Assembly (NCBI RefSeq): GCF_900637305.1
Contig: NZ_LR134365.1
Span: forward strand, 861,501 to 925,500
Reading direction: 5' to 3'
DNA from: Cardiobacterium hominis
Lineage (GTDB): Bacteria; Pseudomonadota; Gammaproteobacteria; Cardiobacteriales; Cardiobacteriaceae
DNA length: 64,000 nucleotides
This document shows positions 11,532 through 42,904 of the stretch, one piece after another. The notes under the pieces were generated by a model. The model saw only the letters and a program-made list of their open reading frames with translations, was not told where the DNA came from and did not search any database. Each line of letters starts with the position of its first letter. Position 1 is the first letter of the stretch. The position numbers were made by a program, and so were the translations under genes.

Positions 11532-11796
11532 GATGGTTCTCGCGGTAGATATTGTGTGAGGGATGAAGCGGTTTATTCTAGCTTCTTGCCAAAAGGTTGC
11601 CAAATAGTTTTGTTGTGCTGTTTGCGTGGTTTTAACACGTTTTTTTGTGCAGTTTTTTTGCGGCTTGTGTGGATTTTTATTGGAAATAAAAACAGGTAGA
11701 TGTGCTTTGGTGTGTTTTTTTATATTCTAATGTGTTAAGTTGCGCTCATGTTAATTTAACAGTTCCTCCCCAGGGGCTGTTGCAGGAGTTTGTGTC
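11532..11796. promoter_or_regulatory. Divergent control region between argS and malQ-glgB
   Basis: These 265 bases are strikingly A+T-rich (many T-runs) compared with the flanking genes and should hold promoters for both argS and the glycogen genes. Candidates on the plus strand are the TTGGTG near 11707 with TATTCTAAT downstream, but spacing is poor and I do not assign a firm promoter. GTTAATTTAAC at 11753 is a small palindrome that might bind a regulator. GCAGGAG lies 7 bases upstream of the malQ-glgB ATG. Confidence 0.45.
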
Positions 11797-16145
<4,349 letters not shown>

Positions 16146-41617: not shown

Positions 41618-41623
41618 GGGATT

Positions 41624-41660
41624 TCCTAGTTTTTTATTGTGGGAGGTTTGCGAACCACAG
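41624..41660 (-). promoter_or_regulatory. PreQ1-I riboswitch
   Basis: On the minus strand: CTGTGGTTCGCAAACC, then TCCCACAATAAAAAACTAGG, ending 7 bases before queF. TGTGG pairs with CCACA as P1, the loop carries the TTCGCAAACCT, the A-rich tail is AATAAAAAACTAGG, and CCT of the loop can pair with AGG as the pseudoknot. This is the class I preQ1 aptamer. The AGG is also the ribosome-binding site, so ligand binding should block queF translation. Confidence 0.85.
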
Positions 41661-41715
41661 GGGCGCGGATTCTACCGGCGCACCGAATTTTGTCAATGAT
41701 TGAGCGGGGATAGCG

Positions 41716-42792
41716 TCAGAAGTTCTCTTTAATCCAGCCTTTGAGGTCAGGGTGGTTGAATGCCCATTGGCTGGCGGCATCGCGCGTAATCAGGTCGGCG
41801 CGCTCCAGGCGGCGCATGGCCGCTTGCATCTGGCTGGTGCTGAGTGCGTCAATCCCCATTTCGCGGGCAAGCTGCTCGCGGGTTTCTTGTTTGTAGGGGC
41901 TGAATTCGCCGTGGGCAAGGTGTTTAAGGATTTGCTGGTCGAGCGCTTTCAGTTCGCGCCAGGTGTCGCTGTAATCGGTGTCGTCATATAAATGGGCGAG
42001 GCGCAGGGCGGCGGCTTCTTCCAGCGACAGGGCGGGATTGATGATCATGTCCTGCACGATGGTGCGGGCGTGCATCGGGATGTATTCCAGTCGCTCAAAC
42101 CAGCGGTAGAACGCGGGTTTGTCGATATCCTGCCCGGTGCGGTCGCGGTAGATGTCGGCGAGGAAATCGGTGAATTCCTGCCCCATTTTCGGAAAATCAA
42201 TCGGATGCGAGAACTGAAAGAACGGTGCCTTGTTGTCGTTGAACATTTGCCGCAAGCCGTTGGTGCTGGAGCCGGTGAAGATGGTCTTGACGCGCGTTTT
42301 GTTCATGTCCAAGCCGGTGCGCAGCGAGCGGATGAGCGGCGCCGTGCCGTCAATGCGCGCCAGTTCCTGGATTTCGTCCAAGAGCAGCAACACGGGCTGT
42401 TTGCCCTGCGCCAACACGCTGATGATTTCGCTGACGCTGATGTGTTCGGTCGCTTGCTGGCGGTTGATGCTGGTGCCGAGGATGTCGATACTTTCAATGC
42501 TTGCCAGCCATTTTTTCAGCTTGCTGCTGGCGCTGCGGTTATCGGCGAATTCGAGCAGGCTTTGCTGGAAGCGCAGCTCCGGATGGCTGTTGGTATCCAT
42601 GAAACTGAAGTAGAACACGTCAATGTGTTGCGCTTCGGCGGCGGGGCGGATGTCATTCAGCAAGAATTGGGTCTTGCCCATGCGGCGCGGGGCGAACAGG
42701 GTCAAGGTGTTGACGATGCCATCTGCCAGCAGGTTAATCAGGTGTTCTGCATGGCGGGCGCGCGGGAAGTAAAGCGGATCGTTCGGGGTCAT
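41716..42792 (-). CDS. AAA/STAND-type ATPase with C-terminal winged helix
   Basis: A 358-residue P-loop protein. Walker A is APRRMGKTQFL (residues about 36-46), Walker B VLLLLDEIQEL, sensor TIFTGSSTNGLRQM. The C-terminal 80 residues (LKALDQQILKHLAHGEFSPYKQETREQLAREMG ... TSQMQAAMRRLERADLI) look like a winged helix. The pattern fits the archaeal-type ATPase_2/AAA_16 group (as in ORC-like and STAND NTPases). The function is not known. The gene stands alone between queF and dapD, has GGAG 7 bases before the ATG at 42792, and its promoter is covered by a 40-base palindrome. Confidence 0.7.
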   Translation of the reverse strand: MTPNDPLYFPRARHAEHLINLLADGIVNTLTLFAPRRMGKTQFLLNDIRPAAEAQHIDVFYFSFMDTNSHPELRFQQSLLEFADNRSASSKLKKWLASIESIDILGTSINRQQATEHISVSEIISVLAQGKQPVLLLLDEIQELARIDGTAPLIRSLRTGLDMNKTRVKTIFTGSSTNGLRQMFNDNKAPFFQFSHPIDFPKMGQEFTDFLADIYRDRTGQDIDKPAFYRWFERLEYIPMHARTIVQDMIINPALSLEEAAALRLAHLYDDTDYSDTWRELKALDQQILKHLAHGEFSPYKQETREQLAREMGIDALSTSQMQAAMRRLERADLITRDAASQWAFNHPDLKGWIKENF

Positions 42793-42814: not shown

Positions 42815-42843
42815 ATTATATGGAATTAGCCACGGTCTGTCTA
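42815..42843 (-). promoter_or_regulatory. Promoter of the AAA ATPase gene
   Basis: On the minus strand, TAGACA (42843-42838) and TATAAT (42820-42815) are 17 bases apart, a near-consensus sigma-70 promoter 23 bases upstream of the start codon. The -35 lies in the centre of the palindrome 42825-42864. Confidence 0.75.
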
Positions 42844-42864
42844 ATTAGACAAACTGTGACTAAT
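42825..42864. promoter_or_regulatory. 40-base operator-like palindrome
   Basis: ATTAGCCACGGTCTGTCTAA is followed by TTAGACAAACTGTGACTAAT. Reversed and complemented it matches itself at 34 of 40 positions, with a perfect centre TGTCTAATTAGACA (42838-42851). It contains the -35 and most of the spacer of the ATPase promoter. The two half-sites, each about 20 bases, are the size expected for a dimeric regulator. It does not lie at a gene end and has no T-run, so a terminator is unlikely. Confidence 0.75.
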
Positions 42865-42904
42865 TTTAGCTAATCCTTGTTTTTCAGCGTGTTATCAAAA
42901 GGGA

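Follow-up and report, generated by a model that had tools for sequence, protein, structure and literature searches.

The locus and its ATPase gene

The window, the whole 64,000-nucleotide stretch of Cardiobacterium hominis DNA that was analysed, contains on its minus strand a gene for an AAA+ ATPase of 358 aa (41716..42792), recognized as an open reading frame with an ATPase_2/AAA_14 match. The likely start is the ATG at 42792, located behind a GGAG, and not the alternative ATG at 42816, because orthologues begin at the equivalent position. The gene together with its promoter and putative operator is inserted, as a single-gene unit, between dapD and queF, two genes that are adjacent and without the insertion in G001, G006 and G008; G001 has its own ATPase copy at another place. 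An ordinary PreQ1-I riboswitch (RF00522, 49.8 bits) was detected before queF, at 41620-41664 on the minus strand.

The Walker A region (APRRMGKTQ, residues 34-42; 42667..42693, minus strand) and the Walker B region (LLLLDE, residues 135-140; 42373..42390, minus strand) of the protein were located by their invariant residues. The protein scored 28.3 bits against AAA_14 (cutoff 27) and 31.8 against the Pfam family ATPase_2, just under its cutoff of 33.2, which the relatives L023 and L079 pass; from these sequence matches, it is assigned to the ATPase_2/AAA_14 superfamily of AAA+ ATPases. A profile of 21 relatives matched the archaeal AAA+ ATPase SSO1545 at E 1.6e-7. An AlphaFold model built from three sequences (pLDDT 71.9, pTM 0.50), of which the fold class alone is trusted, was found by Foldseek to resemble SSO1545 and PABY2304 at ~1e-10, followed by many Orc/Cdc6 chains at 1e-6 to 1e-7. 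In this model the last ~80 residues form a winged helix, composed of helices and a two-strand wing; its region at about residues 280-345 (41758..41955, minus strand) is the proposed operator-binding domain, and showed weak matches to DUF4423 and to the transcriptional regulator phrog_2440. The first-pass annotation had described a P-loop ATPase with a winged-helix tail, a description consistent with the AAA_14 match, the Walker motifs and the modelled C-terminal winged helix.

A search of NCBIfam gave no assignment, and the orc1/cdc6 family model TIGR02928 was matched at only 11 bits, against a cutoff of 181.3. Matches in PADLOC were weak and partial, and did not place the protein in a known defence family. 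No description of this ATPase family was found in the open-access literature. The ATPase is a member of an unnamed family.

A symmetric array on the promoter

Upstream of the gene lies an extended palindrome of 42 bp (42824..42865), in which 18 of the 21 pairs match. Its perfect 14-bp centre, TGTCTAATTAGACA, occupies 42838-42851, with the symmetry axis between 42844 and 42845, and the minus-strand sequence of 42815-42870 is GCTAAAATTAGTCACAGTTTGTCTAATTAGACAGACCGTGGCTAATTCCATATAAT. Symmetry was observed at 24 of 32 positions, compared with 15.1 +- 1.1 in dinucleotide shuffles (shuffle maximum 19). The -35 box of the ATPase gene, TAGACA (42838..42843, minus strand), is covered by the palindrome and is separated by 17 bases from the -10 box TATAAT (42815..42820, minus strand); this promoter agrees with the sigma-70 consensus at 11 of 12 positions and sits in the right half of the palindrome. 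The first-pass annotation had reported a 40-base near-perfect palindrome, a length close to that measured here, and its account of a perfect 14-base centre containing TAGACA, with TATAAT 17 bases on, was confirmed.

The palindrome consists of two abutting 19-bp sites, each fitting TTAGNCA-N5-TGNCTAA: a gene-proximal putative operator site with the -35 box inside (42826..42844; TTAGACAGACCGTGGCTAA in minus-strand reading) and a gene-distal one (42845..42863; TTAGTCACAGTTTGTCTAA, likewise in minus-strand reading). Two outer half-sites are found exactly 29 bp to either side of the centre, 10 bp outside. That at -29 is TTAGCTAA (42866..42873, minus strand), 10 bp past the next half-site, and that at +29 is the -10 box itself, whose TAA doubles as the half-site. 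Neither the subdivision into 19-bp sites nor the outer half-sites had appeared in the first-pass annotation.

Such a palindrome might instead work as an RNA hairpin, either as a terminator of dapD or as a leader structure, and its predicted RNA fold is stable (-21.9 kcal/mol, z -7.5). However, a transcription terminator was rejected, as the T-run is absent and no terminator was predicted, and the palindrome lies outside the ATPase mRNA, being upstream of the ATPase -10 box. Moreover, the relatives are not downstream of dapD, and direct repeats at 10, 19 and 29 are what DNA binding, rather than a hairpin, would lead one to expect. The hairpin explanation is thus considered highly improbable.

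Uniqueness of the sites

Within the window, TGTCTAATTAGACA has no second match at up to two mismatches (0.05 expected). A search for further copies across the whole genome (2.67 Mb) yielded two 19-bp sites at zero mismatches, both in this palindrome, and none elsewhere at one mismatch; at two mismatches, a reversed control pattern gave more matches than the real one. The palindrome is therefore not dispersed, and both a REP-like palindromic repeat and a regulon site were rejected on the basis of these scans, which point to a single locus. In G000, W01, W02 and W04, exact sites occur at the own promoter and nowhere else. In G001 the sole exact site is at the own promoter; a second candidate, with one mismatch, lies inside an opposite-strand ORF, is within chance and was discarded. 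G261 has, at its own promoter, three exact sites of 19 bp that follow one another at 19-bp intervals, and a fourth, overlapping, that has one mismatch; this series fits dimers placed adjacent to each other. In Acinetobacter plasmids an exact site occurs elsewhere too; there the pattern is rich in A and T, and its reversed control was equally frequent.

Conserved geometry with changing letters

In those Cardiobacteriaceae orthologues whose 5' end is intact (57-47% identity), a palindromic centre lies near the equivalent place, and these centres differ in their letters (TTAGAC, TTATAC, TTATTT). Read by eye, the orthologous arrays are TTTGTCTAATTAGTCAAA in G011, a half-decayed form in G001, GTATAATTATAC in G004, and AAATAATTATTT in G003 and G009, where outer half-sites and a second promoter copy in tandem are also present. 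Plasmid relatives at 25-38% identity also have the array, with half-sites of the type ATTAGA in Acinetobacter and TTACGC in Vibrio p123 and Microbulbifer; other types are TTATGC (Tenderia and Pseudomonas) and TTAGTA (Marinobacter). A symmetric array of unchanged geometry, with direct spacings of 10, 19 and 29, is present at the own promoter of most relatives examined, whereas in L024, L026, L034, L038, L056 and L092 the array is weak, different or not clear. Upstream of orthologues and in distant relatives, the array is thus conserved by its geometry and not by its letters. In L015 (10256-10700), as in the corresponding part of L018, the operator-promoter unit is present in two tandem copies before the ATPase gene.

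A six-position model read off the window, with TAA/TTA at the centre and TTA at -29 and -19 mirrored by TAA on the other side, was applied to loci fetched afterwards; it scored 18/18 in L050, 16/18 in L048 and 15/18 in L046 and L058, and the combined p was 7e-7 when all 15 test loci, the failures among them, were counted, although the success of L048 is not independent, this locus being of the same sequence type as L030. An unsupervised count of direct repeats, made without the window, found spacing 10 in 22 of 30 (4.3 expected), spacing 19 in 19 (3.1 expected) and spacing 29 in 18 (4.2 expected). A strict letter model across all relatives fails for the clades with cores TTCATC, TTAAGAC and TTAAGAAC, and for this reason a letter-free palindrome score was used; its median was 11.5 upstream of 52 family genes and 5.0 upstream of 44 control genes (p 3e-11).

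The letters are private to each operator and change with the protein. With centres picked by hand, half-site similarity was 0.52 within an operator and 0.30 between operators (permutation maximum 0.35). Operators are more alike where the proteins are more alike (Mantel r 0.40, p 5e-4). For the winged-helix region alone the correlation with the operator letters was weaker than for the ATPase core (r 0.14, p 0.03), so that the search for a simple code linking winged helix to half-site gave no more than a weak signal. Paralogues in one genome, the sister family included, have long palindromes with largely unrelated letters, L079 and L089 sharing some. This sister ATPase family, which starts with FPxGIAxGxAFCNR, was observed in multi-copy genomes (L079, L080, L081, L085, L088, L089 and L091), with a long private palindrome at each promoter and differing layouts. 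That paralogues sharing a cell have such diverse private operators suggests, by analogy with incompatibility and toxin-antitoxin systems, that cross-talk may be selected against.

Distribution and gene neighbourhoods

The ATPase is present in 7 of 12 Cardiobacteriaceae genomes, one copy being 5'-truncated (G008). Of 274 genomes sampled across the class, 36 have it if looser relatives are included. The family also occurs on plasmids, with 105 records, among them plasmids of Vibrio, Pseudomonas, Acinetobacter, Burkholderia and Cupriavidus. A phage gene was rejected, as none of 50,697 phage records gave a match; in a viral collection the family was limited to two contigs, both integrase-bearing elements, and the other viral-collection scans gave no match. 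The decayed copy of G008 (L009, 1501-2055) retains only the C-terminal half, joined behind unrelated sequence. In G004, a 36-residue match to the winged-helix end, within a 62-aa open frame (L012, 1501-1608), is possibly a solitary winged-helix remnant.

This distribution bears on the proposal that the array is an origin or a centromere-like site, at which an Orc/Cdc6-like ATPase would act in replication or partition with promoter control as a by-product. The resemblance of the fold to Orc1/Cdc6, the frequency of the family on plasmids and the private letters, reminiscent of incompatibility groups, are consistent with such a role. However, a number of the plasmids already encode a replication gene of their own, the chromosomal copies stand alone at unrelated places and are absent from close relatives, and the array is short and placed tightly on the core promoter. 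An origin or centromere is accordingly regarded as very unlikely.

Among 38 loci, no constant neighbour was found across clades, in agreement with the first-pass annotation, which had seen no known partner for the ATPase. The ATPase gene adjoins a Mokosh-like helicase and a Fic-like gene in L015 and L018, a DpdE/ZorD-like SNF2 helicase and HipA in L023, and an EcoRI-type methyltransferase and an integrase in L024. In L019 it is convergent with a TOTE conflict primase-helicase (11778-15251), beside tRNA-Cys and tRNA-Gly, and in L028, L046 and L097 it is in mobile elements behind a tyrosine integrase. Separately, in several independent replicons the ATPase is within or near umuDC (L025, L035 and L033) or near a lexA-type gene (L059); these loci are possibly an insertion hot spot. 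The neighbours, several of which are conflict or defence genes, hint at a conflict or element-maintenance role, but co-location at hot spots could by itself explain them. The leading guess for the job of the ATPase is a guarding role, either in conflict and defence or in element maintenance.

A private autorepressor?

In all 22 operators that were scored, the best predicted promoter overlaps the array, in either the right arm or the left. An activator needs a fixed upstream place, whereas a repressor need just cover the promoter; placement in either arm therefore suits a repressor. The earlier reading of a promoter repressed by a regulator is supported, and it withstood both refuting checks set in the first-pass annotation, on dispersal of the palindrome and on its conservation upstream of orthologues. 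What would be expected of an autorepressor, namely a symmetric operator over its own core promoter that is kept with the gene, is seen here in the sequences. Since operator and gene stay together while their neighbours vary, and the letters of the operator vary with the protein, autoregulation, raised only as a possibility in the first-pass annotation, is now the best explanation. Repression by the ATPase itself is proposed because no other putative DNA-binding protein is present at every locus.

A separate host or element regulator, such as an Xre-type repressor, could bind the array in place of the ATPase, and Xre-type genes were indeed found near two relatives (L023 and L016). Nevertheless, no neighbour is constant across the 38 loci, the genome holds no other exact sites, and the ATPase is the sole putative regulator always travelling with the operator. 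Because the letters of paralogues differ within one genome, a separate host regulator would also be needed for each. A separate regulator is thus judged unlikely. With good probability, the palindrome is an operator at which the ATPase acts as an autorepressor, and the two evolve together; the ATPase very probably switches off its own gene, each copy having a private switch.

In the proposed mechanism, the C-terminal winged helix of the ATPase would contact the operator. ATPase dimers would occupy the two abutting 19-bp sites and, cooperatively, the two outer half-sites, and the bound protein would cover its own -35 and -10 boxes and shut the promoter. Promoter, operator and gene would constitute a self-contained cassette, mobile among genome and plasmid sites. 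As the protein diverges, the half-site letters would diverge too, and each copy would answer solely to its own product. We infer that repression may be relieved by the ATP/ADP state or by an encounter with a target, the nucleotide state being the natural guess. More speculatively, the widespread and unnamed bacterial Orc/Cdc6-like ATPases might be self-silencing one-gene conflict or defence modules, whose operator specificity diversifies per copy as in an incompatibility system and which are derepressed when the ATPase engages an invader or its nucleotide state changes; this remains a tentative proposal.

An uncharacterized and widespread plasmid and chromosomal ATPase family thus gains a testable first property, its own putative DNA recognition code beside each gene. 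The dozens of natural protein-operator pairs, of fixed geometry and varying letters, offer a data set for the evolution of winged-helix specificity and possible orthogonal repressors for engineering, and derepression would be a handle on what the ATPase senses.

Comparison with known systems

The best matches of the window protein in both sequence (E 1.6e-7) and fold (E 1e-10) are SSO1545 (2fna) and PABY2304 (2qen), archaeal proteins of the ATPase_2 (PF01637) kind. Like these, the window protein has an AAA+ core and a C-terminal winged helix and is without a partner; unlike these, it lies just under the Pfam cutoff, and identity is ~17%. To our knowledge, no operator or regulation is known for SSO1545 or PABY2304. 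An AAA+ domain followed by a C-terminal winged helix, with a similar fold (model pLDDT 71.9), is also shared with Orc1/Cdc6, which bind repeated inverted boxes, in archaea often beside their own gene. In contrast to Orc1/Cdc6, the window ATPase is a bacterial one-gene cassette with the array on its promoter, and it does not pass the orc1/cdc6 NCBIfam model.

PDC-S01 is a candidate single-gene defence family with an ATPase fused to a PD-(D/E)XK nuclease (PMC12988326). Its PADLOC model was matched weakly (E 0.017 for the window protein, 2e-4 for L031) and in part, over the ATPase core and not the nuclease domain, and the window protein, unlike PDC-S01, has a winged helix alone after the ATPase. 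Mycobacterial IniR, a regulator of transcription, combines a C-terminal DNA-binding domain with an AAA+ domain that has been compared to SSO1545 (PMC5760070). This layout is like that of the window ATPase, but IniR differs in its size (818 aa), its MalT-like sensor domain and its inducing role, being required for iniBAC induction rather than self-repression (PMC5760070).

RepA proteins of repABC plasmids are reported to act as specific repressors, each of its own operon, where several copies share a cell (PMC4492784), and several ParA dimers are described on one promoter (PMC8465637). RepA and type Ia ParA differ from the window protein in their Walker-type ParA fold, which is not AAA+, their ParB partner and their partition role; as in RepA and type Ia ParA, the ATPase proposed here would repress its own promoter.
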